Part shown: in pieces, positions 701 through 30,779 of the stretch
Layout of the letters: each line of letters begins with the position of its first letter
How positions within the stretch are numbered: position 1 is the stretch's first letter
IMG/VR virus record: IMGVR_UViG_3300043539_000549
Location: 1-30,779 of that record
Length of the DNA stretch: 30,779 bases
Direction: 5' to 3' (one strand)
Source of the DNA: a virus
The notes under the pieces: model-generated
What the model was told of the DNA's origin: nothing
What the model saw: only the letters and a program-made list of their open reading frames with translations
The model's database searches: none
Position numbers and translations under genes: made by a program

Positions 701-3700
701 TTACCGAACGCTTCGGTCGATTTTTTCTCGGATTCTTGTCCGAATGCGTTCTGTGTCGCGGGAGATGGTCTTGATCGCCTCGTCCGGAGTTGAGGTGATT
801 AGTTGCGGGCCTTTTCGGAGGACATATTCCCGATACTGCTGACCCACCTCTCGTTGATAACGGTAAAATTCCTCGGGCGTCATCTGCCGGCGAGTGCCGT
901 TTTCTTTGACCGAGGCAGCTGCGGACGGCGTCGGAAGGAAAACTCCGCGCTCAGACAACGTCGCCAGCGTGTTCCAGGCGGGATCATCCTTCCGGGTTTT
1001 GATCCATCGGCTGAATGGGTGCTTCATCAACTCGATAGGTTCACCAAGAACATTGACCATCGGGCCGGCTCCAATGTCGCGGCGAAGCATGGGCACTTGC
1101 TGGAGAAAATACTCCGAACCGATTTTTGCCTGATAATACTGCGGATCGAAGTACGTATCGACCTGCTTCAGGACATTCGGGATGAACGATCCAGCAAGGC
1201 GTCCTGCCCATCGAGCCAGGTCTTTGTTGACCAAGTCATCAGCGTTGTATTTGTACGCGTTGCTCATGCCAACGAGTTCCGTGAACGCGGAGATTGCAGG
1301 TGAGTCGGTCAGCACAAACATACCGGCCTGAGCAGCGTCCTTGAACTTTCCGAGGATCGCGTCGCGATTCCAGTCCTTAGGGTTGTGCAGCTGGTGATCG
1401 CGTAACTCGCCGATCGCAGCCAGGCCCATCGCGAATGGCATCTGGCGATAGCTGATGAACGTGTCTCCGATTCGGATGGAGTACGGCTGGCGCCCCTGCG
1501 CGAGCAGCTGACGCTTCTTGTCAGGATCCAGTGATCGGTAAGATCCGGTGATGTCGATGTTGCGATCCTCTTCCTTGTCATCATCACCCAGGAAGGTTGC
1601 CGCCGCCATGGCCATGATTGCGGTTCCAATGGACGCCTTCATCAACAAGAGTTTCCGCTCGTTATCGCTGATCTGGTAACCGAACGGCCGGTCGATCCGG
1701 GTCGAGTTGCTCAGGTAGTACCGGGTGAAACCCCACGGAGTGTAGTCGATCGCGCCGTTAGTGGCATTGGCCGCAAACCTCAGAAACGCCAGACCAGTGA
1801 CCATCTTGACGCCGGGATACTTCTTCTCGGCTTGATTCAGCCATTGATAGAACAGCCCGACAATTCCAGTCGGGTCCTGCTTGAAAGCGGCCTGCCGAGC
1901 AAGCTCCTTGGCATCGACTAGGATCTCGGACGGGATGCGGCTCTCAAGGATTTCCCGAACGCGCTGGTTGATTTCATTGGCAGGAATACCCTCAGACTCA
2001 GCCTTGTCTTTCGCCAGCTGAACATCCTCCGAAGTCGGAATGAGGAACTTCTTGATCTGCTCCGCATCGCCACCGCGAGTAATGATCCACGCCTTCATGG
2101 CCTCGTAGTTTGAGGTCACGGCAATGTGATCCATGGCATCCATGAATCGCGATACGAAGCGCAAATTGCTGATAGCCTTGAGAGCCTCGTTGTCGGATTT
2201 CTTGAGTGCTTCGAGCGTGCTGGTCGGGCGCTCCGGATCGAAGTTGATGCCACGGAACATCTCACCTTTTCCAAAGATGCCCGGCAAATCCTTGGCCGAA
2301 CGGCGCAAGCCATCGAGCCACGCCGACGCAATGTAAGGAGCTGATCTCGGGCTTTGCACCGAAGCCAGTCCAGCTGTGATCATGCTGTTGATAATCCCGG
2401 TGCCCTGCTCGACCGCTGTGGTTAGTCCTGACAGGACGGAACCGTACCAGTAATCCATGACAATGTTTCGAGCGCGGATGCCGCCTTCTCGCTGCATCAG
2501 CTGGTACATCTCCTGGATGATCTTGTTTCGGGACGTGCCTCCAGTTCTCTGGGCACGTTGCGCCATGTCAGAAATCTTCTGAGCAGTCTCTCCGTTGATC
2601 TGAGCGACTCCGAACTTCGGTGCGATGGCGTTTCGGAACGCATCAGCTGCTGCTTCAGGGTTGGTAAGCAAACCCAGATTCGCCCACTTGATGATTTCCG
2701 GAATCGAGTCGTAGATTTTCTTGCGAAACTTATCTTTAACCTCGGGCAGTTTGACCTGCTTACGGAACTCTTCGCGAACGATCTTGTTGCGCTCCTTCTC
2801 GAAAGCGTTGCCGAGCAGGTTGGCGAGTTCGATCTGACCCGCACGGCTCAGCGTCTTAAGGATCGGGTGCTCGCTGATCACGTCGAGCAGGATGCGCTTG
2901 TAGTTCCCCTGCTTGTCTAAGCTGGAGGTCATTATGTCCTCCCACGAAACACCAAGCTCCCGGCGAGCTTGCTTGAGTTCGCGTGACACGACGTTGTCGG
3001 CAATCGACAAAGTGGACCGGATATTCGCGATCGCCCGACGTGAGGAGTCGAGCAACCAGCGGCGGATCTGATCGGATGAAACGTCAGGGAACGGAATCTC
3101 CTTCTGGCGCTCAGTGATCAGGTTGTAATAGGTCAGCGTAGGGGTCAGGTAGTCGATGTCATTGATCATCGCCCGACGCGCTTGACCGCTCTGTCCGAAG
3201 TCCTGAGCACCGCTCTGGGCAGCGACCTCACCGATTTTTCGCAGCAGATAGACCCACCTCTGCTGGTCGATTGGGTTTCGGAACGACCCCTGGATTCGGG
3301 CGGCAGTGCGTTCGAGAAGCTCTCCAAGAATGGTCTGCTGAAGAGCCGGCGTGATACCGAACTGAGCGGCTCGATTGCCTCCAGTAGCCGCAGTGAAAGC
3401 CTCTTCAATGTCGTCGCCAAACTGATCGACCCATTCACGGGCAGCGGATTTGCGCTCCGCGTTGGTCTCGCGAACGATGCGCCCCTGGAAGAACCCAGCA
3501 GACGGGCGGCGGCGTTGACCAGCGGCGGCGCGAGGCGCCTTGATGTTTTCTCGGTCAAACGGACCAGCGCCAGGAGTCTCAAATGCGCCTTCAATTATCT
3601 GGCCGATTTCGACCTCGGCAGCAGCGAAGTCCGTATTTGACGGTGCATTATCGCGCACATACTCGAACGCCGCCTGACGCGCTTGCACGATGTCGCGGGT

Positions 3701-6700
3701 CTTAATGTAGACCGCACGCGCAGCTCGCAGCGCCAGATTGATAACCGCCAGCGGGATTGCCGCCGTAGATTCGTATGAACCCTGCGGACGGGTAGCTTCG
3801 ATGGCCCGGTTCAGCAGGTTCTCGACCTTGTCGTACATCAATCGGCCGAGATCGGGATTGAGTTGTTCGGCCAAAGACAGCAGGGCGGGCGCGTCAGCCG
3901 CGTCCATCGTGCCGACAAGGAATGATCCCCTCTGGACAAGATTGTCCGGGAACATCCGCTGGATGCTCGCGTTAGACCAGACTGGGCGTAACGAACTTCC
4001 GGCCCGGATGCGGACTTCGTACTTTCCGTTGCCGACAGGCTTGATGCGTAGGAGTTCGCTAGCCTTTCCTCCCTCGCTCTGACCCTTGGCAAAAATCTCA
4101 GTGCCGCTTTTTAGGAGCGATATAGCTTCTTCTCTGCCGATCCGGATGTCCTTCACCATGCGCTCAGGTGTGAAACTGGCTGGCATCACAATACCAGTCT
4201 TCCGCTTGCCGGTGTTGGTCGTGTAGATGGTAATCTTTGGTCGAACCTCAGATGCGCCACGCGCTCCTTGAAAACCCTTCAGGAGGTTTCCAGTCACGAT
4301 GTACCGCTGATCGGTCGTCTCCGTTGTGGTCTGCCATTCTTCAGCGGCATTGTCTACTTCTTGACCAAGAGATGAAGCGACCTCTGATCCTTCGGACATT
4401 GACAGCGGCATAGAGGCGCGTGAACGCACCATGTTGCGTATCAAAAGAATCTGATGATCTGAAGGACGAGTGAAGTTCCCAGGATCGTTTGACTTAAGTT
4501 TCAGTCCAATCGGAACTGCGACGTAGCCAAATTGGTTTTTGAATGCTTTCCCGATCTTTTGATAAGCCGTGATAACCATTTGTCTGGTTTCTTCAAAGCC
4601 ATCTTTAACTGATTGTATCTGCGATGGAGACATTTCTTTAGTCTGCATCGTAGCAATACGTTGATCCTCAAATGCTCTGCTCTGTTGAAGCCATCCTTCC
4701 GCAATGTTTTTAGTTGAAGGTTTATTCTTAGCAGCTTCTTCGGTTGCAGTGCTGTAGGTTGGCGGTGCCTTCGGCGAATTGATTGAGACGCGCTCCATGA
4801 TAGACGGGCCGTCAAATGGAGTCGTTCCAGTTCCAGGAGTAAATTCTGTAGACTCAAGAATTTTAGCTCTAAAATCATCGACGTTAGCCTTCAGCGGGTT
4901 CTCACCAACCTCATCGAGCGCCCGGATTCGGTCCGTGTAGAGTTCCGAGATGTCGCGCCAAAGCTTGGCAGCGTAGTCGTCCGGAAGGATTACGAAGTAA
5001 CCCGTGGCCGATCTAGCGAAGTCGCCACCTTCGTCGATTCCTTCGTCGAGCGGAGGCAGACTGAAGTCCATCTGGTCAACGATCTCAGGATTGGATTTTA
5101 GGACGTTGTAGACCACGTCATCGCCAATCGAGTTGAAGATGTCAGCAACCAGACCTTCGTTTGCGGTCAGATCGGATTCAGTATCGGCAGATGTGTTGGC
5201 GTTCAACGAAGCCATCTTGCGCCGCAGCAACACCATGAACCGATTCTCAGCGGCCAGCGAAGAGGATAGAACCACGTAGCGCGGCAAGCTGGTCTGACCA
5301 AAACGCATGATGCGTCCGAGCATCTGCATGAAGTCGTTGATGTCTGGGGCAGCTTGGCCGACGATCATCACGCGGCGCCGCTGGTCTTTGAACTTCGGAT
5401 CAGTGTGAGCACTGGTTCCAGTTGAGCCTGCTTTGTTTACAATAATCGCATCAAGTCTTCCGTTGTTGTAATCATCCAAGATCACCCGGCGATCGCGCTT
5501 CTTCCTAGGAACAGAGGCTGACTTACCTTCAGGTCCCGTAACAATCTCCGTGCTTCGACCAGTGATCTCGTCGATAGAATAACCCGCCTGTTGAATCCGG
5601 TTCTTAATGAAATCGATTGGCGAGATGGGCATATCTCCAAAGTCTCCACCTGCGATCTCATCTCGAATGTCCTCATACTGCTGACGAGCTTCATCTGGAA
5701 GTTCATCAGGAGTGATCTTGACCGTTTTCTTAGTGTCGTCTGCTTTGTCTTTGACGGTGACTTCAAGCAGCTTGTCCAGCTGACGAAGCAGTAGACCTTG
5801 ATACGAGACATCGTAACCCTCTTCCTTAAGGGTCTCGATAGGGCCTTCCATCGTGTTGTTGATCGCGATGAAAGGCTTTTCATTGCCCTTGAGAGTTCGG
5901 ATCGCATTGTCAGCGATCGCCTTGGCTTTAAGCGAAAGAATGTACTGGGTCGAAAGGTTAAATAGATGACTTCCGAAATTCGTGGATGAAACGCTTACTT
6001 TTGATTCCGATGCACGGGTTTGATTTTCCACGTTCTCCATCTTCTTCGCGACCTTTGAGACCTTCTTACTGAAGCGCAGAATCTGCTGAAGAAAGTCCGT
6101 GTACACGTCAGCAAGCTCGCGCTCGCGCTCTGCGTTGTCGGTAGAGGTAACGAAATCAAACGGCACTCCGCCCCAGTTCTGCTCACGGCGCACGAACTCT
6201 CCGGATTCGGAGAGCATCGAAGTAAGCGCCTGCTGAAGCGCCAAGCCGCCGCTGTCGAGCAGTTCGGTCATTTCAGCTGGGCGCAATCCAGCACGCTGCA
6301 TCAAAGTTTTGAGCGCGTAGAGACCGAGGTTATCCGGACGCTTAGCGAACGTCGCAGATGCGAAGTACGCACCTTTTGACTTGGGAAGAATCTGATCGAA
6401 TCGAATGTTCGTGTCGGAATTTGCGCCGGCCGCTAGGTGAGCCTCGTCCAACACGAAGATTGCGTTTGGAGCAATACGAGATAGCGCCTCCCAGATGGGA
6501 CCAAACGATTTGGCAATTCGCTTAGATTGACGGGCCCGCTTCTGTTTGGCGCCTTCCTTGAATCCAGGAGGAACATCCGATTTTAGCTGATCGTAGGTCG
6601 TGAAAAATGCGTTGGTTCCCTGAGGAAGTTCAGCCGTGTCGTTGATCTTTGCCAATTCCTCACGACTCTTAGCGGATGTTCTTCGCACCTTCACGGTCTC

Positions 6701-9700
6701 ACCAGTGGATGCGAGGTAATCGACGTTGCTGTTCGTGACATAAGGCCGAATACCATTCTCACCGATCGCCGGAAGATCTCGACCAGCCATGTCAGAGTAC
6801 AGGGTTGGCTTGGCGGTGATGAAAACCGGAGTCAGTCCGTTCAGGCGTGCATACCGCAAAATGGCAGCAACGGTGCGCCCCTTGCCCACACCAGTTTGGT
6901 CTGAGTTGATCAGCGCCGAACCGCGTTCAATGTTCCGAATTGCCAAACCAGTAGCGTCAATCTGGGCGGCGGACATTATCTTAAACAACTGGTCCTTGGT
7001 CATCTGCAACCGATTAGCGACGTAGTTGTCGATCGGCATCTTGACCTCGGCCTCCAATTCGCGGAGGGCTCGCTCAGTGGCGTCAGCGATGTTTGAGGGG
7101 CTGACGAGTCCGGTTTCAGCGTTTTTGCTCTGGCTCTTGTAGGGCTTAGTACGCGCCTCAGACATAGCCTCCGGCTCTGACTCGATTTCGGGATCGACCG
7201 CAATCTCAGGCTCGGTGGGCACCGTGGTTTGGTCGATCGCATCAATGACGCCGGTTGCCTGGGTTCGATTGAGATCATCCAATCCCTCGACGGTATTGGC
7301 GGTCTCCTGCCAAATGGATAGAAGCGACCGCTTGAGCTTATCCCAGATTTCAGGGAGATCAGCACGCACTTGCGAAGCGAACTCGGCAAACGTGCGGATG
7401 CCGGCCTTGACGTACAAGGAAGCCATCTTGACGCCGATTACTAGAATCTCGGGGTCCACGCCCATGGCGGTGCCCCCTAGCTTGTCGCGCAGCTGCTTCT
7501 TTAATGCCTCCAGTTGCGTTTGCTCATCCGTAGATAGCTTCGATGTTAACCCGGGCCTTGCGGCAGGCGGCTTAACCACAGGTTCAATCCGTCCTCCTGC
7601 CACGCCTCCAGCTGCTCCTGGTTCTTTGACTCTGGGCGCTGGCTCAACCACTGGTCCAGTTGCCGCCGGTTCACTTGGAGTAGGAGTTCGTTGTTCTGGA
7701 GCACTTGGTACAACTGCTCCGGGTCCAGGAACAGGCTGCTCGACAGGAACAGGTTCTGGCCGCTTTCCTTGAGATAAGAGTTCAGGACTCGCAGGCGCTC
7801 CTGGAACGCCTCCGGGTTGTCCTGCACCTCCTTCAACTGTCGGCTCCACAGCTGGGACATTTCCCATGCTAGTTGCTGCTGGGACGACAGGGGTTGTGAC
7901 TTTCGATTTGCGAGCTTCATTGATCAGCGGTTTGAGTTGTGCCCAGTTGTTGTAAACGCGAGGTGCTGAAACCCACGGACGGACCAAACCTCCTTGGGCG
8001 GATGGAGAGGTTGATCGTTTTCCGTCGATTACCACAATATCGACCGGCCATCCTGCCCCCATCTTGGAGTACATACTGCCGTCGATGGTGAAGAAGTCGG
8101 TAACATTAAACCGATTGAACAGGTCAAGGTACTCAGCCCGTTCGTAGGATTTCAGCCGGTTTTCTGGAGTTCCCAGCTTGTTGGACTGCGATCCAGTCTT
8201 GGATCCCAAGATCAGCACGGCCTTTCCGTTGGGGGCCATGGCTTCGAGCGTGTTCAGCGCAATAGCGAGGTCGATGCTCGAAGTATCCGCCCGCTTGATA
8301 CTGCTTCGGAAGAGCGGGAACGATTCCTTATAACCTTCAAGGAATCGAGCGCCAAACGGAGGGTTGATAATGACGCGATCCGGTTGAGCAGAATCCAACA
8401 AGTCAAAGAACTCCTTGCTGACGGCATCAAGTCCGGTGGCAGGTTTTCCAATAAAGCGTTCCAGACGCGTGCGGCGGTTGGGATCCAACTCGTTAGCAAG
8501 AATCTCCTGCTTAGTCGGATCTGACGTGACAAGCAGCATTCCATTGCCGGCGGTCGTTTCGGCAATGCGTTGACCACTCTCTATGTCAGCAAGGATGCCG
8601 GCCAGATAAGCAAGCGGAGGCGGCGTGGAATAGGCTTGCGCGGTTTTACTGGACGCAGTTCGAGTACGCAGATCCGGCCCTTGTTCGTACCGCTGAGTCA
8701 GCTTGTCGTAGGTCTCAGTCGGATCTACTCCAGCAGACCGATCTTCACGCACAGTCTGTGCGGTAGCTTGAATGATCTGCGATTCAAGTTCCTCTTCGAC
8801 TTCTTTCTTGTTCGGTTCAACCAGTATTGGGCCGGGAACAGGTGTTGGTTTGGCAGGAGGAAGCACGGACGCCGCTAGAGAGATTTCCTCCGGAGGACGG
8901 ATTAGCTCTTCTGGTACGATCGGCGCTTTGGGTGTAGGCTCTACCGGCGGCGCAATAGCCTCTTCAACAGCGGCAGGAATCGTGGGTTCCGGCTGGATTG
9001 AAATCGGTCCAGAGGGCGGCCCGCCTGCATTGATCCCGCCAAGCTCTTCGGCAATGTCGGGAGTGAGCGCATCCTCTATGCCAGATACGGTGGCAGCAGA
9101 ATTCGGAAGAGGGTTTGCGGGATCATCACCAATGGCTGCACGGCTGGCAGCCTCACGATCAATGAATCCAGGAATGCCATCAACCACCGCACCTCTTCCA
9201 AGGCGCTCCTGCTGCAAGCTACGAAGCCTCTGTCCACGCGAAATCTTGCCAGCTCCACCGGCAACGAGTCCGACCAGTGTTCCGACGCCCGCACCAACCT
9301 CTCCGGACTCAAGGATTCCTTGGCCTAGTTTCTGGTCAGGGTTGTAGATTTTCTGAGCGGCCAGATTCTGAAGGAACTGTTCCGACGATTCCTGTGCTGC
9401 TTCTTCAAGGCCAGTTTTGAAAGCGCCACGAACAACCCTTTTTCCAATAGCGCCAGTTACCAGACGCTTTACTGCTGGAACAGCACCTAACGCGCTTTCG
9501 GTGATCGCACCAATCGGTGCTGTAGCCATGAGCACCTTACGCTGTGCCTGTGGCTTTTCAGCGCGAAGCCGACTGGCTTCCATCGCGTCTCCTTTTGCCA
9601 ACGCCTCCGCAATCTTGGTGTCGTAGAATTGACCTGCCTCTTGCGCGGCATCTTCACCAGAACTAAGGCCGTATGCCAGCTGTCCAACGCCGGGTATCGC

Positions 9701-10153
9701 TGCAACCGGAAGCGATCCAACGCCGCTTGCCAACTGGGTAAGATAATCTTCTTCCCGCAACGGATTGACCGGGAACGCTTCCGCCGCTCCTGCTTGAAGG
9801 TTCTGACCCAGCTTAAACGTCGGATCATTTTCAGTTCTCGCTTGGAGAACTTCAGGTGAAACTTCCCTAGTGCGTTGCTGCCATGCTTCGAGCCTACGGT
9901 TGTAAGCTTCCATTCCAGCGGGGCTTTCTGCTTGCGCCGCTGTCATCATCGGAGGCGGCTCTTCTGACGCTAAACGCGCAAGGCCCATCATGCTTCCACC
10001 AACCATGCGACCGCCTTCCCGCATGAAGGCTGATCCAGCGGAAGAAAGCGCACCTTGATCTAAGGTATCGACAAATTCTTGAAGTTCATTTTCACCAACA
10101 TCATCAGGAACCTCGATTAGACCGATGTCTTGAATATCAATGAGCTTAGGCAT
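701..10153 (-). CDS. Giant polyvalent protein: N6-adenine methyltransferase-like plus strawberry-notch-type SF2 helicase, probably injected from the virion
   Basis: This is a single uninterrupted 3150-residue protein. Residues about 125-305 hold Gly/Ala-rich hydrophobic segments separated by acidic helices, as in phage proteins that cross membranes. A Pro-rich linker follows. Residues about 490-700 look like an N6-adenine methyltransferase, with an SAM-binding-like AETTAGNG near 530 and a catalytic NPPF at 597-600. A second Pro-rich linker precedes a helicase: Walker A TGVGKG from 1087, DEAH at 1236-1239, GSTGTSAHT near 1577 and QMLGRIMRFGQ from 1610. The last two, with the following RYVVLSS and ENRF, match the strawberry-notch (SBNO) helicase family. 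Residues about 1700-3150 are largely unassigned and contain hydrophobic segments near 2571-2600 and 2840-2856. Methylase-helicase fusions such as P1 DarB are virion-delivered anti-restriction proteins. The gene lies 3 bases after two ejection-type genes. The start is the only sensible ATG; no Shine-Dalgarno is seen. No lysozyme or transglycosylase motif was recognised. Confidence 0.85.
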   Translation of the reverse strand: MPKLIDIQDIGLIEVPDDVGENELQEFVDTLDQGALSSAGSAFMREGGRMVGGSMMGLARLASEEPPPMMTAAQAESPAGMEAYNRRLEAWQQRTREVSPEVLQARTENDPTFKLGQNLQAGAAEAFPVNPLREEDYLTQLASGVGSLPVAAIPGVGQLAYGLSSGEDAAQEAGQFYDTKIAEALAKGDAMEASRLRAEKPQAQRKVLMATAPIGAITESALGAVPAVKRLVTGAIGKRVVRGAFKTGLEEAAQESSEQFLQNLAAQKIYNPDQKLGQGILESGEVGAGVGTLVGLVAGGAGKISRGQRLRSLQQERLGRGAVVDGIPGFIDREAASRAAIGDDPANPLPNSAATVSGIEDALTPDIAEELGGINAGGPPSGPISIQPEPTIPAAVEEAIAPPVEPTPKAPIVPEELIRPPEEISLAASVLPPAKPTPVPGPILVEPNKKEVEEELESQIIQATAQTVREDRSAGVDPTETYDKLTQRYEQGPDLRTRTASSKTAQAYSTPPPLAYLAGILADIESGQRIAETTAGNGMLLVTSDPTKQEILANELDPNRRTRLERFIGKPATGLDAVSKEFFDLLDSAQPDRVIINPPFGARFLEGYKESFPLFRSSIKRADTSSIDLAIALNTLEAMAPNGKAVLILGSKTGSQSNKLGTPENRLKSYERAEYLDLFNRFNVTDFFTIDGSMYSKMGAGWPVDIVVIDGKRSTSPSAQGGLVRPWVSAPRVYNNWAQLKPLINEARKSKVTTPVVPAATSMGNVPAVEPTVEGGAGQPGGVPGAPASPELLSQGKRPEPVPVEQPVPGPGAVVPSAPEQRTPTPSEPAATGPVVEPAPRVKEPGAAGGVAGGRIEPVVKPPAARPGLTSKLSTDEQTQLEALKKQLRDKLGGTAMGVDPEILVIGVKMASLYVKAGIRTFAEFASQVRADLPEIWDKLKRSLLSIWQETANTVEGLDDLNRTQATGVIDAIDQTTVPTEPEIAVDPEIESEPEAMSEARTKPYKSQSKNAETGLVSPSNIADATERALRELEAEVKMPIDNYVANRLQMTKDQLFKIMSAAQIDATGLAIRNIERGSALINSDQTGVGKGRTVAAILRYARLNGLTPVFITAKPTLYSDMAGRDLPAIGENGIRPYVTNSNVDYLASTGETVKVRRTSAKSREELAKINDTAELPQGTNAFFTTYDQLKSDVPPGFKEGAKQKRARQSKRIAKSFGPIWEALSRIAPNAIFVLDEAHLAAGANSDTNIRFDQILPKSKGAYFASATFAKRPDNLGLYALKTLMQRAGLRPAEMTELLDSGGLALQQALTSMLSESGEFVRREQNWGGVPFDFVTSTDNAERERELADVYTDFLQQILRFSKKVSKVAKKMENVENQTRASESKVSVSSTNFGSHLFNLSTQYILSLKAKAIADNAIRTLKGNEKPFIAINNTMEGPIETLKEEGYDVSYQGLLLRQLDKLLEVTVKDKADDTKKTVKITPDELPDEARQQYEDIRDEIAGGDFGDMPISPIDFIKNRIQQAGYSIDEITGRSTEIVTGPEGKSASVPRKKRDRRVILDDYNNGRLDAIIVNKAGSTGTSAHTDPKFKDQRRRVMIVGQAAPDINDFMQMLGRIMRFGQTSLPRYVVLSSSLAAENRFMVLLRRKMASLNANTSADTESDLTANEGLVADIFNSIGDDVVYNVLKSNPEIVDQMDFSLPPLDEGIDEGGDFARSATGYFVILPDDYAAKLWRDISELYTDRIRALDEVGENPLKANVDDFRAKILESTEFTPGTGTTPFDGPSIMERVSINSPKAPPTYSTATEEAAKNKPSTKNIAEGWLQQSRAFEDQRIATMQTKEMSPSQIQSVKDGFEETRQMVITAYQKIGKAFKNQFGYVAVPIGLKLKSNDPGNFTRPSDHQILLIRNMVRSRASMPLSMSEGSEVASSLGQEVDNAAEEWQTTTETTDQRYIVTGNLLKGFQGARGASEVRPKITIYTTNTGKRKTGIVMPASFTPERMVKDIRIGREEAISLLKSGTEIFAKGQSEGGKASELLRIKPVGNGKYEVRIRAGSSLRPVWSNASIQRMFPDNLVQRGSFLVGTMDAADAPALLSLAEQLNPDLGRLMYDKVENLLNRAIEATRPQGSYESTAAIPLAVINLALRAARAVYIKTRDIVQARQAAFEYVRDNAPSNTDFAAAEVEIGQIIEGAFETPGAGPFDRENIKAPRAAAGQRRRPSAGFFQGRIVRETNAERKSAAREWVDQFGDDIEEAFTAATGGNRAAQFGITPALQQTILGELLERTAARIQGSFRNPIDQQRWVYLLRKIGEVAAQSGAQDFGQSGQARRAMINDIDYLTPTLTYYNLITERQKEIPFPDVSSDQIRRWLLDSSRRAIANIRSTLSIADNVVSRELKQARRELGVSWEDIMTSSLDKQGNYKRILLDVISEHPILKTLSRAGQIELANLLGNAFEKERNKIVREEFRKQVKLPEVKDKFRKKIYDSIPEIIKWANLGLLTNPEAAADAFRNAIAPKFGVAQINGETAQKISDMAQRAQRTGGTSRNKIIQEMYQLMQREGGIRARNIVMDYWYGSVLSGLTTAVEQGTGIINSMITAGLASVQSPRSAPYIASAWLDGLRRSAKDLPGIFGKGEMFRGINFDPERPTSTLEALKKSDNEALKAISNLRFVSRFMDAMDHIAVTSNYEAMKAWIITRGGDAEQIKKFLIPTSEDVQLAKDKAESEGIPANEINQRVREILESRIPSEILVDAKELARQAAFKQDPTGIVGLFYQWLNQAEKKYPGVKMVTGLAFLRFAANATNGAIDYTPWGFTRYYLSNSTRIDRPFGYQISDNERKLLLMKASIGTAIMAMAAATFLGDDDKEEDRNIDITGSYRSLDPDKKRQLLAQGRQPYSIRIGDTFISYRQMPFAMGLAAIGELRDHQLHNPKDWNRDAILGKFKDAAQAGMFVLTDSPAISAFTELVGMSNAYKYNADDLVNKDLARWAGRLAGSFIPNVLKQVDTYFDPQYYQAKIGSEYFLQQVPMLRRDIGAGPMVNVLGEPIELMKHPFSRWIKTRKDDPAWNTLATLSERGVFLPTPSAAASVKENGTRRQMTPEEFYRYQREVGQQYREYVLRKGPQLITSTPDEAIKTISRDTERIRTRIREKIDRSVR

Positions 10154-24980: not shown

Positions 24981-25234
24981 CCCCAAAACAAGAGTTTCAA
25001 AAAAACCAACAGCGCCTCAACGAGCTTAAGCGCCTCCTGGATAATCAGGACTTACAAGCTGCCCTACTCGTTGCGTTCAATAATTTCTGCTGGAACCTGC
25101 CAGCCTCAGAGAATCCTCAACACGGATGGAATGCAAACTGTCGCAGACAGGGCGCAAAAGCGTTGATTGATGAACTCAACGGGCTTGCAGAGATGCGGAA
25201 AGATAAACCGACCACCACTCAAAACCTCGAATGA
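24977..25234 (+). CDS. Hypothetical small protein between portal and scaffold
   Basis: An 85-residue protein with translation coupled to both neighbours (ATGA overlaps at each end). The N-terminal helix is charged (PKQEFQKNQQRLNELKRLLDN), followed by ALLVAFNNFCWNLP and a conserved-looking Gly/Asn/Arg turn, then a second helix ALIDELNGLAEMRK. I recall similarly sized helical proteins in this slot in related phages, but cannot name a family. It may be a minor head or assembly protein; the role is unknown. Confidence 0.65.
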   Translation: MTPKQEFQKNQQRLNELKRLLDNQDLQAALLVAFNNFCWNLPASENPQHGWNANCRRQGAKALIDELNGLAEMRKDKPTTTQNLE

Positions 25235-26478
25235 GAATCCTATTATCACCTGATGCCCCAACTGATCGCGGGGCGGATTACACTGACGCCTTTGCAGGAA
25301 TCGACGCCATCGAAGGCAGCGGGCTGGACAACCCAATGGGATCATCGTCCCAGCAGGCTCCTCAAGAGGTAACACCTGCGCCTGCGGTATCCGCTCCAGA
25401 GGTTCAGGCGCCTGCCCCCGCTGACCTTGCTAAGCCCAAGAACGAGGATTTCTTCAACCTCGATAAGTTCACCCCCAAGAAGGATGAACCGGCACCGACC
25501 GCTAAGGCTGAGCCCACCAAGCCTGAGCCCACCTCTATCAAGCAGTTTCGTGAGCAGTACGACTTGACCAAGAAAGAGCGCGATGATTTCGCGGCCAAGG
25601 TCTCTGAGCTTGAGCGTGCTAGGTCTGAAGGCACTAGGAAGGAAGTCGAAGAGGCCACCAAGTCACTGAAGGCCGAGATGGATTCCATCCGGAAGAACGC
25701 CGAGGAGCTGGACACCGAGGTGCGGTATCTAAACTACACGCGTTCCGGTGAGTACAAGCAGAAGTACGAGACCCCTCTGCGCGAAGCCTGGCAGACCGCC
25801 CTAGGCGATATTGACGGAATCCGTGTCACTGATGCCGATGGCACTGAGCGCGACGCCAGTCACCATGATATCATGGCGATCCTGAACGTGCCGGTCGCCA
25901 AGGCCGCGATTATCGCCCAGGAGATGTTTGGTGCAGCTGCGCCTGAGATAATGACTCACCGCCGCCGGTTACTCGAACTCACTCAGTCTCGCGACAAGTC
26001 CATCGCTGAATGGAAGGAGAAGGGAGCGCAGCGTGAAGTTGAGCGATCGAAGCAGGTGGAAGGACGTCAGTCTCGCTCACGTGAACTCTTTGAATCGCAG
26101 TTCTCGGATTACGAAAAGAGTCACCCACAGCTGTTCGGCAGGGAAGAGGGAGATGATGATGGCAACAAGCTCCTAGACGAAAGCGATCGGCTGATCCGAA
26201 TCGCGCTGAAAGGCGAGGGCGTCGATGCTGACATGGGCTACGAGGACAAGGTTGACCTCATTACGAAGGCTCAGGCACAGGTTGCCCTACGTGCTCGGGC
26301 CTATGGCCGTGAGCGCCTGCGAGTAATCCGTCTCCAGCAGAAGGTGGCAGAGCTGGAGAAGAAGGTTGGAAAGGTCCGATCCTCGGAACCCGGTCAGGGT
26401 GAGGGGACTTCTACTGCGACGCGCATGGCTCCTAAGAGTGCTGAAGACGCGATCGACGAGTTGCCGTCGGCGTACTGA
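25231..26478 (+). CDS. Head scaffold protein
   Basis: A 415-residue protein. The first ~120 residues are disordered, rich in Ala, Pro, Glu and Lys. The middle is long charged coiled coil (DLTKKERDDFAAKVSELERARSEG and onward to ~170; a second stretch near 250-300; a third ending the protein near VAELEKKVGKV). Acidic helical proteins just after the portal are typical scaffolds that guide capsid assembly and leave before packaging. No protease motif is visible. The start overlaps the previous stop (ATGA). It is the last gene of the plus-strand unit; the next gene is convergent and only one base away. Confidence 0.8.
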   Translation: MRILLSPDAPTDRGADYTDAFAGIDAIEGSGLDNPMGSSSQQAPQEVTPAPAVSAPEVQAPAPADLAKPKNEDFFNLDKFTPKKDEPAPTAKAEPTKPEPTSIKQFREQYDLTKKERDDFAAKVSELERARSEGTRKEVEEATKSLKAEMDSIRKNAEELDTEVRYLNYTRSGEYKQKYETPLREAWQTALGDIDGIRVTDADGTERDASHHDIMAILNVPVAKAAIIAQEMFGAAAPEIMTHRRRLLELTQSRDKSIAEWKEKGAQREVERSKQVEGRQSRSRELFESQFSDYEKSHPQLFGREEGDDDGNKLLDESDRLIRIALKGEGVDADMGYEDKVDLITKAQAQVALRARAYGRERLRVIRLQQKVAELEKKVGKVRSSEPGQGEGTSTATRMAPKSAEDAIDELPSAY

Positions 26479-26479
26479 G

Positions 26480-26725
26480 CTACCAGGCGGCGCAACTCCA
26501 GTGCTTCGCAGAGAGCTTCGTGCCCGGTGTGTCACAACCATGCCGGGCACGAAAGCTTTTACGGTTCTTCGGGATGTGCTTCTTGATGGTCATGTTCGGA
26601 TCACCAAAGCGCACGAGCTTCACTTGCCCGCCTTCCTTAGCCAAGACAGCGGACTTCTTCGAGGCGCCTGGCGTAGACTTCGGTTTGTTGTACCCGGCAA
26701 ATTTCTGGCCCCGGTAGGTAATCAT
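26480..26725 (-). CDS. Conserved small basic phage protein
   Basis: An 81-residue protein. The start MITYRGQKFAGYNKPK at 26725 was chosen because its ATG overlaps the lipoprotein stop (ATGA). The protein begins with ITYRGQKF.GYNKPK.TPG, has a KK..AVLAKEG pattern and VKLVRFGDPNM, and ends with a basic helix KSFRARHGC followed by KLSAKHW. I recognise this as a widespread family of short phage proteins (I recall the label DUF6321, not checked) with no agreed function. It is strongly basic and may bind nucleic acid or the virion. It ends one base from the scaffold stop on the other strand, and its last third contains the opposite-strand terminator-like hairpin. Confidence 0.7.
   Translation of the reverse strand: MITYRGQKFAGYNKPKSTPGASKKSAVLAKEGGQVKLVRFGDPNMTIKKHIPKNRKSFRARHGCDTPGTKLSAKHWSCAAW
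26514..26560 (+). terminator. Rho-independent terminator candidate for the packaging operon
   Basis: The arm AGCTTCGTGCCCGG (26514-26527) pairs with CCGGGCACGAAAGCT (26543-26557) with a single bulged base, giving about 14 pairs around a 15-base loop, followed by TTTT. It starts 36 bases after the scaffold stop. It lies wholly inside the oppositely oriented 81-residue gene, so the same DNA encodes that protein's C-terminal part. The structure is visible by eye; activity is inferred. Confidence 0.65.
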
Positions 26726-26940
26726 TTGGCTTTCGGCAGTACGTACCACCCAGCTGGAAGTGTAACCCGACTGGGCCCAGAGAGCTTGCCGTCCTTGTCA
26801 AACGCGTAGACGCGAGCGCGGACGGGCTCTGCTAGCATCACGGGGTCACCGCTAGGAACGAGGATCACCTTGGTCTGCTGGCAACCCAGGCAGATTGGCA
26901 ACACGAGCAGCCAAATCAGATTTGAGAGGCTTTGGCGCAT
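26722..26940 (-). CDS. Lipoprotein, possible Rz1-like spanin or surface protein
   Basis: A 72-residue protein. The start MRQSLSNLIWLL at 26940 is chosen over an ATG two codons upstream (26946) because a GGAAG sits about 6 bases before it. A hydrophobic signal segment (residues about 5-19) ends in a lipobox-like ICLGC, placing the lipid cysteine at C20. The position -3 residue is Cys, which is not the usual one. After that the protein is a short beta-like domain (VILVPSGDPVMLAEPVRARVYAFDKDGKL and SRVTLPAGWYVLPK). Small phage lipoproteins near holin-like genes are commonly outer-membrane spanin subunits; that is the likely role but is not proven. Confidence 0.65.
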   Translation of the reverse strand: MRQSLSNLIWLLVLPICLGCQQTKVILVPSGDPVMLAEPVRARVYAFDKDGKLSGPSRVTLPAGWYVLPKAK

Positions 26941-27019
26941 TTCCATCTTCCACTTTCGGTGCAGGCGTCTCTCGGAAGAAATCCAAGAGAGCCTTCACGA
27001 GTTGATAGATCCAGTTCAA
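26852..27019 (-). CDS. Small amphipathic protein, TTG start
   Basis: A 55-residue protein starting at a TTG (NWIYQLVKALLDFFRETPAP...). The TTG overlaps the stop of the preceding holin-like gene (TTGA), and no in-frame ATG exists nearby. The N-terminus is an amphipathic hydrophobic helix, followed by a Pro/Lys/Asp-rich tail. The reading frame is supported by coupling geometry at its start and by its amphipathic pattern. It overlaps the first 89 bases of the lipoprotein gene in another frame. It may be a small membrane-associated lysis or injection accessory; the function is unknown. Confidence 0.5.
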   Translation of the reverse strand: MNWIYQLVKALLDFFRETPAPKVEDGNAPKPLKSDLAARVANLPGLPADQGDPRS

Positions 27020-27210
27020 ACCGGAGGAACGACAGGAGTCTTTTCGGCGTCCTTGGCCATTATGAGACCAATGCCGGCGGTCACCGCTGCGATGGTCGAA
27101 GCGATGTCGATGTTGGTGCTGGGATCGGCGTCGAAGGCGGCCCGTAGGGCGCCGCCAACAGCGATAAGGATTGCCCCGAGGCCAGCGAGAGTTGTTTTCG
27201 TGTTTTTCAT
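27016..27210 (-). CDS. Holin-like two-segment membrane protein
   Basis: A 64-residue protein with two hydrophobic segments, residues about 7-27 (TLAGLGAILIAVGGALRAAF) and about 38-54 (ASTIAAVTAGIGLIMAK), joined by a short acidic loop, with a basic N-terminus (KNTKT). This is the arrangement of many small phage holins, which form the pores that time lysis. The ATG overlaps the previous stop (ATGA). The specific holin label is inferred from topology and neighbours; no endolysin is seen nearby. Confidence 0.55.
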   Translation of the reverse strand: MKNTKTTLAGLGAILIAVGGALRAAFDADPSTNIDIASTIAAVTAGIGLIMAKDAEKTPVVPPV

Positions 27211-27377
27211 TTGGATTTGAACAGCCTATAGGCTCCGTAACAGGCGCACAAGAGACCAACCACAGCGGTCACCAGTCGCACCCAATCGGTTAGGATTGGC
27301 AGGAATGATGCAGCGGTGGCACCTGCTGCTGCTGCTAGGCTGAGTCCAGGGCTGGTGCTGCTGTTCGTTGGTTCCAT
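27207..27377 (-). CDS. Small membrane protein
   Basis: A 56-residue protein read from ATG at 27377 to TGA at 27207-27209. Two hydrophobic stretches are visible, an Ala-rich one (residues about 13-28) and a stronger one, LVTAVVGLLCACYGAYRLF (about 35-53). The C-terminus is Lys-rich (KSK). The start overlaps the previous stop by one base (TAATG) and the stop overlaps the next start (ATGA). It may be a second holin or antiholin; the pairing of two small membrane proteins side by side fits that, but this is inferred. Confidence 0.5.
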   Translation of the reverse strand: MEPTNSSTSPGLSLAAAAGATAASFLPILTDWVRLVTAVVGLLCACYGAYRLFKSK

Positions 27378-27526
27378 TACTCGGATTTAGGCTGTGCGGC
27401 TGCAACTATAAGGTCCACAAGCGGAAGGGCTGCACGGGCGTTAGCAACGCCACCAGCCTTAACCGCGATGTCGATGAGTTGGAGGAGGCTGTTGGCCTGC
27501 TCCTGAGTGAGTTCGATGGTAATCAT
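27377..27526 (-). CDS. Very small helical protein
   Basis: A 49-residue protein (ITIELTQEQANSLLQLIDIAVKAGG...). It is almost entirely helical and slightly acidic with a Lys/Ser/Glu end. The ATG overlaps the stop of the upstream gene (ATGA) and the stop overlaps the next ATG by one base. I recall short proteins of this pattern in phages but cannot assign a function. Confidence 0.5.
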   Translation of the reverse strand: MITIELTQEQANSLLQLIDIAVKAGGVANARAALPLVDLIVAAAQPKSE

Positions 27527-27894
27527 ACGACGGGAGCGTCAGCGATAACCACAGGCTCCGCAACCTTAACCGGAGGCGGCACCGGCACCCACGGCAACGG
27601 CAGCGTCACCACGGGCGGATTGATCTGATTCTCAATCTGCTGCGTCACGTTGGCTTCGATAGCGGTCTTATCGACTCCGTTGCTATAGCACCAGTTCAAG
27701 ACCTGTTCCTGCGTCAGGTCAGGATATGGCGTAAACTCACCAGACGGCGGCTGGAACGAGCAGGAGCCGTAGCAAGTGCCGCTGTATTGATCCTGAGTGC
27801 CGTTGCATCGCCAGTCGGCGGTGATTACGACATCGGTGAGACTGCCTTCGGTCGGCTTAACGAGAAGGCGTTCGATGATCCAGAGGATGGTCAT
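27523..27894 (-). CDS. Conserved small phage protein, Trp/Cys-containing
   Basis: A 123-residue protein. It begins TILWIIERLLVKPTEGSLTDVVITADWRCNGT, followed by a beta-like part with four Cys (WRCNG, TCYGSCSF, WCYSNG), then an acidic helix and a Pro/Val-rich C-terminal tail (VTLPLPWVPVPPPVKVAEPV). I recall the pattern 'VKPTE..LTDVVITA.WR' as a recurrent small phage protein with no known function. It lies 3 bases after the S74 fibre gene and overlaps the next start (ATGA). It may be a fibre accessory, judging by position. Confidence 0.6.
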   Translation of the reverse strand: MTILWIIERLLVKPTEGSLTDVVITADWRCNGTQDQYSGTCYGSCSFQPPSGEFTPYPDLTQEQVLNWCYSNGVDKTAIEANVTQQIENQINPPVVTLPLPWVPVPPPVKVAEPVVIADAPVV

Positions 27895-27897
27895 AAA

Positions 27898-29409
27898 TTA
27901 GCGGGATTCGAGGGTTTGGACGCGGGCGGTGAGTTCTTGGATTGCGGCAACCAAGATGGGGACAACTCGGGACATATCGACTCCCTGCGGCTTGATCGAA
28001 CCATCGGCGTTCACGGCATCCTTTTCACCAGTGACAGCGGCAGGAACGATGTCGGCCAATTCATGGGCCAAGAATCCTTCGCCAGCAGAACCGTCAGACT
28101 TCCAATTATAAACGGAAGGCTTAAGCGCATTAACGCGAGTAAGACCACCAACCAACGGCTTGACAGATTCCTTCAGACGGTAATCTGAAATGGTGTTGTA
28201 AGTGGTAGCAAGCGTTGTAACTGAGATGTTTCCAACCTGAAGCGTCTCACGATAAAATTTAATTGTTTCACCATCCGTTGCAAGTCGGTTACAGAATAAC
28301 GAAGCATCGCTTGTGACTGTTGCTTGAATATACCCTCCTGCTGCTTCTTCAAGACCAACAGTGCCAAGTGCGCTTGCCGTCTTTCCTATAAGCAATCGCC
28401 CATTCGCATCGAGGGTCATTCGAGGGGTTAAAGTCGCCGCAGTGCCAGCTCCAGACGCTCCTGAATTTGGGGCATTGTACCAAATGAATTGTCCCCCATT
28501 TTGATAAAAAGAAGCAGCAGCCGTATTGCTGTTCGCATATTTAAGCCCACCATCATAATAGAGATTTGACCAAAGATACGCTTCGGAGTTACCGCAATAC
28601 AATCCAAATCCTTTTACAGATCCAACCTCAAGACCTCTGTAACCAGATGCACTGAGACTATTAACACTCGGCGTAACCCCCACGCCCAACCCCGTAGAGT
28701 TGAGGGTCATGGCGGTGCCAGCGTTGGTGGCCCATGCGTGTTCGCCAGTCTGATTGATGACGTATCGGTTACTTGCCGCAGTCACTGACCGAATAACAAA
28801 TGAACTGTTTGAAGCACTCGGAATTCCAGCAGACAACGCAAACTCCTCACCACCGGCACCGCTGTTGACCATACGAATTCTTACGTTCGCATTGTCGTTT
28901 CCGCGAATCAAAATCGCGTCAGCTAGATTGTTTGTAAAAATGTCCAGCGGCGCACCGGGAGTCGCCGTACCAATACCCACCCGATTGTTCGTCGAATCCA
29001 CCTTCAGCGTACTCGTATCCACCGTCAGATCGCCAGTGACAACAAGCGGACCATCAATATCCAGCCTGTTTGCGGTCTTGTCCCAGAGAAATTTACTATC
29101 CCCTGCCAACACCCCACCATCATTAAAAATCACCTGCTTATCCGCACCAGCACCACCGGGAGCCGGCGGGGAGAACACCATCCGCATCATCTGATCGACG
29201 ACGATCGACATGATGTCGTCGCTTGGCTGGCGAACGATCTCGTAGAACTCGTCCCACAGCTGTTGCGTGGTCAGGTTCGGATTGAGCGGGGTGCCTACGT
29301 TTGCGTTAGCAAGTACGGCGGCAAGCGTGGCGCGGATCTCATTGGTAGACTTCAGGTTTAGAACCTGTTGAGCCTGCGTAATAAGGGTTTGAATCGAAGG
29401 AGTGGACAT
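27898..29409 (-). CDS. Tail fibre / receptor-binding protein with an S74 intramolecular chaperone
   Basis: A 503-residue protein. The N-terminal ~90 residues are helical (VLNLKSTNEIRATLAAVLA and LWDEFYEIVRQPSDD), likely the particle-attachment part. Next comes VIFNDGG...LAGDSKFLWDK, then repeated beta units of the fibre type (NRVGIGTATPGAPLDI, NGRLLIGKTASALGTVGL). The last ~96 residues are an intramolecular chaperone of the peptidase S74 family, starting SDYRLKESVKPL with the putative self-cleavage Ser at 408, then GFLAHELADIVPAAVTG and a C-terminal coiled coil VVPILVAAIQELTARVQTLESR shortened to its helix pattern. S74 domains help the fibre trimer fold and then cut themselves off. The central part is AT-richer than the ends. 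Confidence 0.8.
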   Translation of the reverse strand: MSTPSIQTLITQAQQVLNLKSTNEIRATLAAVLANANVGTPLNPNLTTQQLWDEFYEIVRQPSDDIMSIVVDQMMRMVFSPPAPGGAGADKQVIFNDGGVLAGDSKFLWDKTANRLDIDGPLVVTGDLTVDTSTLKVDSTNNRVGIGTATPGAPLDIFTNNLADAILIRGNDNANVRIRMVNSGAGGEEFALSAGIPSASNSSFVIRSVTAASNRYVINQTGEHAWATNAGTAMTLNSTGLGVGVTPSVNSLSASGYRGLEVGSVKGFGLYCGNSEAYLWSNLYYDGGLKYANSNTAAASFYQNGGQFIWYNAPNSGASGAGTAATLTPRMTLDANGRLLIGKTASALGTVGLEEAAGGYIQATVTSDASLFCNRLATDGETIKFYRETLQVGNISVTTLATTYNTISDYRLKESVKPLVGGLTRVNALKPSVYNWKSDGSAGEGFLAHELADIVPAAVTGEKDAVNADGSIKPQGVDMSRVVPILVAAIQELTARVQTLESR

Positions 29410-29412
29410 AGG

Positions 29413-29817
29413 TCAGACAAATTCAGCAAAGGTGTAGGACGGGCTTCCGGCGACGGGGGCGACGCTGATTGGGCCAGTGTAGCCTTCAAAAGTCAGTGAT
29501 GATGCGTGAGCGCCAGCGGTTGCGGCGCTCAGAAGAACGTAGTGGTAATCAGTCGCAGTGCATCCGGTTCCAAACTTCAAGTGGAGATGCTCAGCCTTCT
29601 GATTCTGGATTACAAACCGACGGCGACCAGGATTGGCAGCGGCCGTTGCAGTCGCAGTCAGGAGTCCACTTGGGCTCGTTGTGATGCGGGCAGCGTCAGT
29701 TGAAGCAACCTGAATCTGCTGAAGCAGCGACAGCAGCATCGTCTGCTGCAATCCAGGTTCCAGGCAGTCAAAACAACCGCCCGTATCGGCGAGTTCTTGG
29801 GGGGTTAAAACTGGCAT
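29413..29817 (-). CDS. Small virion-type protein, tandem to the fibre
   Basis: A 134-residue protein. The start MPVLTPQELADTGGCFDC at 29817 follows the upstream stop by one base; an ATG at 29841 would overlap it. The N-terminal half is helical with a CFDC pair (QQTMLLSLLQQIQ). The C-terminal half is a beta domain (RRRFVIQNQKAEHLHLKFG, YHYVLLSAA, SSLTFEGYTGPISVAPVAG). I recall a helical head plus beta sandwich with this pattern as a minor structural protein placed next to the capsid and fibre in related phages. The exact role is unknown. Confidence 0.6.
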   Translation of the reverse strand: MPVLTPQELADTGGCFDCLEPGLQQTMLLSLLQQIQVASTDAARITTSPSGLLTATATAAANPGRRRFVIQNQKAEHLHLKFGTGCTATDYHYVLLSAATAGAHASSLTFEGYTGPISVAPVAGSPSYTFAEFV

Positions 29818-29818
29818 A

Positions 29819-30085
29819 TTAGGCTTCCTCCTCCATGTCATCCATCTCCATTTCGGCGCCTTCCATCTCTTCTACGTCCTGCCGGCCGGACTCACCAAGT
29901 GTGATGCCGTCAAACCCGATGATCTCGATGGTGCCACGCGCCGTGGTGCGCCAGTCAACCATTGCGGTTCCGGAGTCGCCTTCGAGTCTCAGCTCCTTGG
30001 GCGGAGTAAACTCGACGGTCTCGACTTCGGGTTCCATACGGCCCATGCCGTCCATCTTTCGTTTACCCATCATTTGTCCGTACAT
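29819..30085 (-). CDS. Small acidic-tailed protein
   Basis: An 88-residue protein starting MYGQMMGKRKMDGMGRM. The start is supported by an AGGA (30093-30096) 7 bases upstream, one of the few clear ribosome-binding sites in the window. The N-terminus is basic and Met/Gly-rich, the middle is beta-like (ELRLEGDSGTAMVDWRTTARGTIEIIGFDG), and the C-terminus is an acidic Met/Glu tail. It lies downstream of the capsid gene and its terminator. It may be a head decoration or completion protein; the evidence is weak. Confidence 0.6.
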   Translation of the reverse strand: MYGQMMGKRKMDGMGRMEPEVETVEFTPPKELRLEGDSGTAMVDWRTTARGTIEIIGFDGITLGESGRQDVEEMEGAEMEMDDMEEEA

Positions 30086-30107
30086 CGTAAAATCCTTTTC
30101 TTTAAAG

Positions 30108-30133
30108 TCTTGGTGAGAGGTCTTGGTGAGAGG
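30108..30133. repeat. Perfect tandem direct repeat, 13 bp x 2
   Basis: TCTTGGTGAGAGG occurs twice in a row, at 30108-30120 and 30121-30133, in the gap between the capsid gene and the 88-residue gene. It directly abuts the nested hairpin at 30133-30169. It could be a binding site or a slippage duplication. Confidence 0.8.
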
Positions 30134-30169
30134 CTGCTAGCGTCCCGGACGCTCCGGGCGGCTACCAGC
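30133..30169. other. Nested GC-rich inverted repeat
   Basis: Outer arms 30133-30141 (GCTGCTAGC) and 30161-30169 (GCTACCAGC) pair with one mismatch. Inner arms CCCGG (30144-30148) and CCGGG (30154-30158) pair around a 5-base loop ACGCT. The element sits between the tandem repeat and the capsid terminator, in non-coding DNA. It may be a processing hairpin in the transcript or a protein site. Confidence 0.55.
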
Positions 30170-30174
30170 ACCTC

Positions 30175-30203
30175 AAAAGGGGGCTCCCCCGAAGGAGAGC
30201 CCC
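30175..30203 (-). terminator. Rho-independent terminator after the capsid gene
   Basis: On the minus strand GGGGCTCTCC pairs with GGGGAGCCCC (one G-U pair) around a UUCG tetraloop, followed by CCTTTT. The stem spans 30180-30203 and the T run covers 30175-30178. It begins 17 bases after the capsid stop. It probably ends most capsid transcripts, allowing higher capsid expression than the downstream genes. Confidence 0.8.
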
Positions 30204-30219
30204 GTTGTTATCGACCCGA

Positions 30220-30779
30220 TTAAATCGCGAACTCCAACGTGACGTTGGTGCAGCTGCTGCCGGCCAGTTGGATAAGGGTGCCAGAGACAACGCTCCAGGT
30301 TCCCTGGCCAGCGCCGAACTCGGCGTCCCAAGCAGCTTGCAACGCGATAATCAAGGCAGCCACGCTAGCTGCGCTGATACCAGCGTTAGCGACGATGTTT
30401 CCATCGCACAAGATGCCGGTGGTTCCGATGACATAACGAGCCGGGTCGGCATCGTTGATGACGGCAGTGAACTGAATCACACTCGGGCAGACAGGGTCCG
30501 CAGAGTTGTAATCCTGAGCGGAATCGCCAGGATCCGCAGCGCAACCAGTGACAATCACAGGGCACGCACCTTGGACCTTGTGGAAGATCGCCTCAAGCCA
30601 TTCCGGATGCTCAGGCTTCACGGCCAACTGGAAGTCGGCGATGAACTTACCTTTGTTTCCACGGCTGTTGTCGATCGGCTTGCCAGCGCAATCGGCGCCC
30701 AAGTCGTTGGTCGCGAACTTCCAGCGACCACCGTAATCCCGAACCAGGAACGGCATATTCGGGTTGACGGCCTCGGGGC
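30220..30779 (-). CDS. Major capsid protein (C-terminal part; N-terminus beyond the right edge)
   Basis: The frame is open from the stop at 30220 to the right edge, so only about the last 186 residues are visible. An internal Met at 30756 is not the true start: upstream codons read ...PEAVNPNMPFLVRDYGGRW with no stop. The visible part contains FLVRDYGGRWKF, NLGADCAGKPIDNSRGNKGKFIADF and LAVKPEHPEWLEAIFH, which I recognise as the C-terminal region of a phage major capsid protein. It ends with a beta-rich domain containing several Cys. The strong terminator just downstream fits a highly expressed gene. It is on the strand opposite to portal and scaffold. Confidence 0.75.
   Translation of the reverse strand, partial: PEAVNPNMPFLVRDYGGRWKFATNDLGADCAGKPIDNSRGNKGKFIADFQLAVKPEHPEWLEAIFHKVQGACPVIVTGCAADPGDSAQDYNSADPVCPSVIQFTAVINDADPARYVIGTTGILCDGNIVANAGISAASVAALIIALQAAWDAEFGAGQGTWSVVSGTLIQLAGSSCTNVTLEFAI

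Follow-up and report, generated by a model that had tools for sequence, protein, structure and literature searches.

Capsid protein is usually the most abundant protein of the virion, and in phage T7 the terminator that follows the capsid gene, T-phi, is a hairpin. This terminator lies directly after capsid gene 10 and only part of the transcripts pass it, according to passages of PMC5592923. Part of the text of PMC10134795 similarly places an apparent strong terminator directly after the major capsid protein (MCP) gene of phage LUZ100. In bacteria, hairpins and REP sequences can stabilise messages (PMC4942690 for REP), and passages of the same source report that a REP sequence inserted in a 3'UTR raised the level of MalE. 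Short conserved boundary sequences have also been proposed at the joints of phage modules, in sections of PMC3029335.

Here we describe a pair of stem-loops, H1 and H2, found directly after a probable capsid gene in a linear virus record of 30,779 bases (IMGVR_UViG_3300043539_000549, positions 1–30,779; this whole stretch is called the window below). The motif was unreported in the open-access literature that we searched, within the wording used.

Genomic context of the post-capsid gap

The two stem-loops occupy a 134-nt gap at 30086–30219 that separates the probable MCP gene from an 88-codon gene, all on the minus strand. The frame open to the window end stops at 30220–30222 and the co-directional 88-codon gene starts at 30085. 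Same-strand gene junctions that could be assigned elsewhere in the window overlap or measure at most about 12 nt, by reading. From the capsid stop onward, the minus strand carries a leader, the UUCG hairpin H1, CTTTT, the nested hairpin H2, a 13-bp unit twice, AAAAGGA and the ATG of the next gene. The features are as follows, with the coordinates of H1 and H2 converted to the window by hand and the counts taken over 29 distinct junctions defined in the next section.

30220–30779, minus strand: probable major capsid gene, 3' part only, with 185 codons inside the window; 527–541 codons in relatives
30204–30219, minus strand: leader 3' of the capsid stop; varies among haplotypes
30180–30203, minus strand: H1, a GC-rich 10-bp stem with a UUCG loop; present in 29/29, 99.7% of cells paired, compensatory change in 3/10 pairs
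30175–30179, minus strand: CTTTT tail 3' of H1; short and not conserved
30128–30174, minus strand: H2, a nested hairpin of 17 pairs, its stem interrupted by unpaired bases and a G-G mismatch; present in 29/29
30107–30132, minus strand: two perfect copies of the 13-bp unit (30107–30119 and 30120–30132)
30093–30099, minus strand: AAAAGGA, Shine-Dalgarno-like, for the 88-codon gene, by direct reading; largely invariant in the alignment
29819–30085, minus strand: next cistron of 88 codons, with its own ribosome-binding site

A 13-bp perfect tandem repeat, a nested GC-rich hairpin and a UUCG hairpin had been described here in an earlier note made from the sequence, and all three were found, on the minus strand. 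That note listed the repeat and the nested hairpin side by side as additional elements. Both exist, but they are not separate: repeat copy 30120–30132 overlaps H2 and carries the 3' end of its stem.

The gene upstream of the gap probably encodes an HK97-like capsid, as judged from a structure model. A first model was set aside (mean pLDDT 39), and the full protein modelled by AlphaFold2 from 14 sequences was still weak (mean pLDDT 51). Foldseek matches of this second model were not significant (best E 0.15 in PDB, 1.1 among viral structures). In a second-look structure alignment the top seven matches were all phage capsids (GP4, N4 twice, Pan3, Moo19, B2 and LME-1), with Z of 6.4–7.6 where values <8 can be chance. 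PHROG gave no family for the full capsid protein, the capsid part in the window or the 88-codon product, and Pfam returned nothing for the C-terminal capsid part in the window or the 88-codon product. There was no tblastn match of the capsid and putative portal to the phage collection, and nothing meaningful in a profile search of solved structures. Residues 445–531 (L002 numbering), a better-modelled C-terminal domain, was similar to domains from the capsid and tail proteins of Bxb1 (Z about 6). The 3' region of the capsid gene is highly variable among relatives. The capsid gene, an identity that is itself modestly supported, is followed by co-directional genes, with a tail-fibre-like gene further on.

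Elsewhere on the minus strand of the window, a 3150-codon gene (701–10153) has strawberry-notch-type helicase domains (AAA_34 and Helicase_C_4) and a DarB-like antirestriction match; it spans about 9.5 kb, and the record of a relative, the L013 contig with a 127-bp terminal repeat, about 46 kb. An 89-codon gene (26480–26749) matched phrog_7595, of unknown function. A 137-bp stretch within it shared 75% identity with Roseobacter phage CRP-2, which was the sole DNA match of 25231–30779 in the phage collection.

Fold and covariation

Among 767 minus-strand windows of 110 nt, the gap ranked first in stability. Its minus strand folded at -58.8 kcal/mol (z = -3.5 against 200 shuffles, of which 2 folded as well) and its plus strand at -56 kcal/mol (z = -2.7). 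The 13-bp repeat was the sole perfect tandem duplication with a unit of 12–30 within the window, and 40 first-order Markov surrogates contained none. Rfam 15 gave no match in the window at the gathering score; when E up to 5 was allowed for 30000–30300, three weak matches appeared far below that score, none of them credible. A simple sigma-70 consensus scan gave no promoter-like site in the gap, with output no higher than for shuffles. A long-range pairing, GGGUC/GACCU, occurred only in the window and was dropped, as the alignment showed by eye that it is not maintained in relatives.

The capsid part of the window had close relatives at 37 loci, all with the same kind of gap followed by a gene starting ATGTAYGG. 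These loci and the window gave 38 junctions, of which the 29 distinct ones were aligned and used for counts. With no structure supplied, RNAalifold recovered H1 and H2 only from this alignment, as 27 pairs, and 99.6% of the 783 cells (27 pairs in 29 junctions) were paired. Folding with covariance in relatives had been proposed in the earlier note as a check, and its result favoured an RNA: 7/27 pairs had changed at both positions (2.4 on average after shuffling), a number that 0/500 shuffles equalled, and controls with the structure slid along the alignment gave 0–2 compensatory pairs. The count of further pair types was not above shuffles (243/500). On the capsid-sense strand there were 68 G-U cells versus 3 A-C cells; these are not independent, since 45/68 G-U cells fall in two pairs, and counted by pair the bias is G-U in 7/27 versus A-C in 2/27. 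The compensatory changes and the wobble bias point to selection on the capsid-sense RNA rather than on a DNA site, and favour an RNA function of that strand. Both hairpins were also well kept where the coding sequence had diverged. For locus pairs with capsid 4-fold sites <60% identical (168/378), identity averaged 93% in H1 and ranged over 84–91% by bin in H2.

The suggestion of a stable 3' RNA made in the earlier note was thus borne out as far as structure is concerned, on the strength of these compensatory changes and this bias. Its two other suggestions, a small RNA or a DNA site, fared poorly. The compact and stable fold of both strands would suit an independent element of either kind, but no promoter-like site or Rfam match accompanies it, the next gene follows immediately, with its own ribosome-binding site and an ATG 17–46 nt after H2 across distinct junctions, and the strand bias of the wobble pairs disfavours a DNA site. 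We regard this explanation as extremely improbable. A direct-repeat DNA operator built from the H2 arms was considered and rejected: the changes at pair 60–86 (C-G, U-G, U-A) keep pairing and not repeat identity.

Variation among lineages

Counted by hand from the junction sequences, the 13-bp unit occurred twice in 11/29 junctions and roughly three times in L004, with at most one copy in 17/29. It has the appearance of a slippage-type duplication that took in the 3' arm of H2 and spacer, and no separate role need be invoked for it. The stem of H2 was far more constant, with 99.6% of its cells paired, compensatory change in 4/17 pairs and 11/17 pairs invariant across the 29 distinct junctions. 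When 39 sources and 18 whole records were searched for the element, they returned only the main match, its antisense self-match and weak matches of <16 bits, with one strong match per record in 18/18 records. The exact H2 pattern was found in 36 stretches of viral contigs, none outside the known set, and L028, the 37th locus, also has the pattern.

Outside the H2 clade, L133 and L184 retained H1 and lacked H2 in front of a homologous next gene. The L133 contig measures 6.3 kb and is catalogued under a Nitrospiraceae genome; the homology of its next gene was established by translation, and the next gene of L184 is 47% identical over 62 residues. L180 has two hairpins of other sequence, and its next gene is homologous as well (55% over 58). 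Among 14 loci outside the H2 clade, a model of the element matched only L133 and L184, weakly, over 77–87 bases that we read as H1 alone.

The constancy of H2 could reflect binding by a protein, in which case H2 would be an RNA operator or processing site, recognised for example by the 88-codon product or RNase III, that controls translation or cleavage between the cistrons. The invariant pairs would fit, as would the identity of H2 where 4-fold sites have diverged, its single strong match per record and its confinement to the known set of viral contigs. Yet L133 and L184 do without H2 despite a homologous next gene, and because the distance from H2 to the ATG varies over 17–46 nt, H2 leaves the ribosome-binding site uncovered. 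On balance we find such a site rather improbable.

To place the junction more broadly, we used 21 loci, 7 representing the H2 clade and the 14 outside it. L127 (junction as in L126), L146 and L147 (identical or nearly identical to L145) and the incomplete loci L130, L132, L189 and L190 were left out, and the start-codon offsets for L128 and L133 are approximate, about one base off. A very stable hairpin was present at the capsid junction in 21/21 loci, down to about 40% MCP identity and often in unrelated sequence. The 60-nt window at the junction lay within the most stable 0.9% of its own locus in every case, and 11 loci had no equal elsewhere. By reading, a T run of at least 3 followed the hairpin in 4/14 loci outside the H2 clade (L142, L144, L180 and L184). 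Given stable hairpins at all 21 loci and a T run at so few, the common trait is a strong post-capsid stem-loop, neither one sequence nor a canonical terminator. The earlier note had held that loss of the repeat and hairpin from close relatives, at kept gene order, would refute its reading. Half of this was seen: the repeat is down to one unit or less in 17/29 and H2 is gone from L133 and L184, but H1 persists in both and a very stable hairpin stands at every one of the 21 loci. In L125 (7630–7830) the post-capsid hairpin is largely duplicated within the next reading frame, like an inserted REP-type element.

These data also bear on a plain intrinsic (Rho-independent) terminator, in which H1 and its U-run would end the capsid transcript and H2 would be the leader of the next one. 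H1 with its UUCG loop and the CTTTT that follows it in the window have the right appearance, TTT lies within 7 nt 3' of H1 in 17/29 junctions, and T7-like phages offer precedents for a terminator at this place, in the passages cited above. However, the U-run is missing in 12/29 junctions and, by reading, in 10/14 loci outside the H2 clade, H2 has none 3' of it in 29/29, and no promoter-like site lies from H1 to the next gene. H1 was also absent from a mechanical terminator scan of the window, which requires 5 T in 8. Of the marks of an intrinsic terminator, the GC-rich hairpin was thus found throughout (H1, 29/29) and a conserved U-run was not. Because the U-tract 3' of H1 is short and so often missing, the function that is conserved is not that of a textbook terminator, and we consider the plain terminator unlikely. 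The UUCG terminator named in the earlier note is real as a hairpin; the terminator label is weak for a tail that is only CTTTT and unlisted by the scan.

Possible recombination at the junction

We compared the gap with two flanks, the final 300 nt of the capsid gene and the initial 210 nt of the gene that follows. Its identity exceeded that of both by 12 points or more in 37/378 pairs, and the reverse held in 1 pair. Between L003 and L013, the gap is 99% identical versus 59% and 71% for the flanks. L003:5556–5671 holds an L013-type gap (98%) amid L004/L017-type flanks. As its leader likewise belongs to the L013 type, exchange of about 110 bp appears the simpler reading of the L003 sequence. 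Strong purifying selection would explain part of the higher identity of the gap.

Such exchange raises the possibility that the gap is a recombination joint, kept alike as an anchor for homologous exchange of the tail genes and of the capsid gene's variable 3' region. The excess of pairs in which the gap surpasses both flanks and the mosaic in L003 would fit a joint, but a pure DNA anchor would not predict compensatory pairing and G-U bias, and the hairpin is retained in distant lineages though its sequence is replaced. We therefore think this very unlikely as the role of the gap; it is compatible with the stabiliser and attenuator proposed below. A bolder version of the operator would make H2, with its near-invariant 17-pair stem, a new phage RNA operator, bound by a virion or host protein that would tie the making of capsid to the next gene, swapped as a cassette among diverged genomes and replaced elsewhere by unrelated hairpins. 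We rate this slightly lower than the operator or processing site discussed above.

Proposed function

We propose that the gap acts between the cistrons, stabilising the 3' end of the capsid message and partly attenuating transcription, and so raises capsid mRNA over downstream messages, a reading to which we assign a probability of roughly 0.6. In the capsid-sense transcript the two stem-loops would lie 3' of the capsid stop and 5' of the ribosome-binding site of the next gene. There they would stop exonucleases that work 3'-to-5' and thereby shield the capsid portion of the message, and the U-run after the hairpin, where present, would terminate part of transcription. Capsid mRNA would then exceed downstream mRNA. 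Since the gap has no promoter-like site, the downstream genes would be expressed via read-through or after processing. Some observations count against the stabiliser and attenuator. The conservation of H2 exceeds the need of a mere exonuclease block, and both the absence of H2 from L133 and L184 and the short or missing U-tract fit it poorly.

An uncultured phage group thereby gains an RNA motif with covariation support. The pattern across lineages suggests that selection after the capsid gene keeps the strong stem-loop itself, not its sequence or U-tract, and annotated phage post-capsid 'terminators' may often work mainly as 3'-end stabilisers.

Comparison with known elements

Like T-phi of T7 and the LUZ100 element, as far as the cited passages describe them, the motif lies directly after a probable capsid gene; theirs precede co-directional virion genes that need read-through. 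Unlike them, it has two hairpins, its U-tract is not conserved and H2 is near-invariant. The gap also resembles, in the sections cited, the short boundary sequences that have been proposed where phage modules meet: in some pairs it surpasses both flanks in conservation, and it appears to have been exchanged. It differs by its RNA covariation. REP sequences and puf-operon hairpins share with it, in the portions of the sources used, stable stem-loops between or after cistrons and no requirement for a U-run. They are bacterial, whereas each phage record has the element here once, at one junction, rather than as a dispersed repeat. One mark of an intercistronic stabiliser, a strong stem-loop that needs no U-run, was found in 21/21 loci, and the many dispersed copies that define REP proper were not, each of the 18 records having its one strong match. 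Most likely, the sequence motif is new and the mechanism ordinary, one well known among the control elements of phages.
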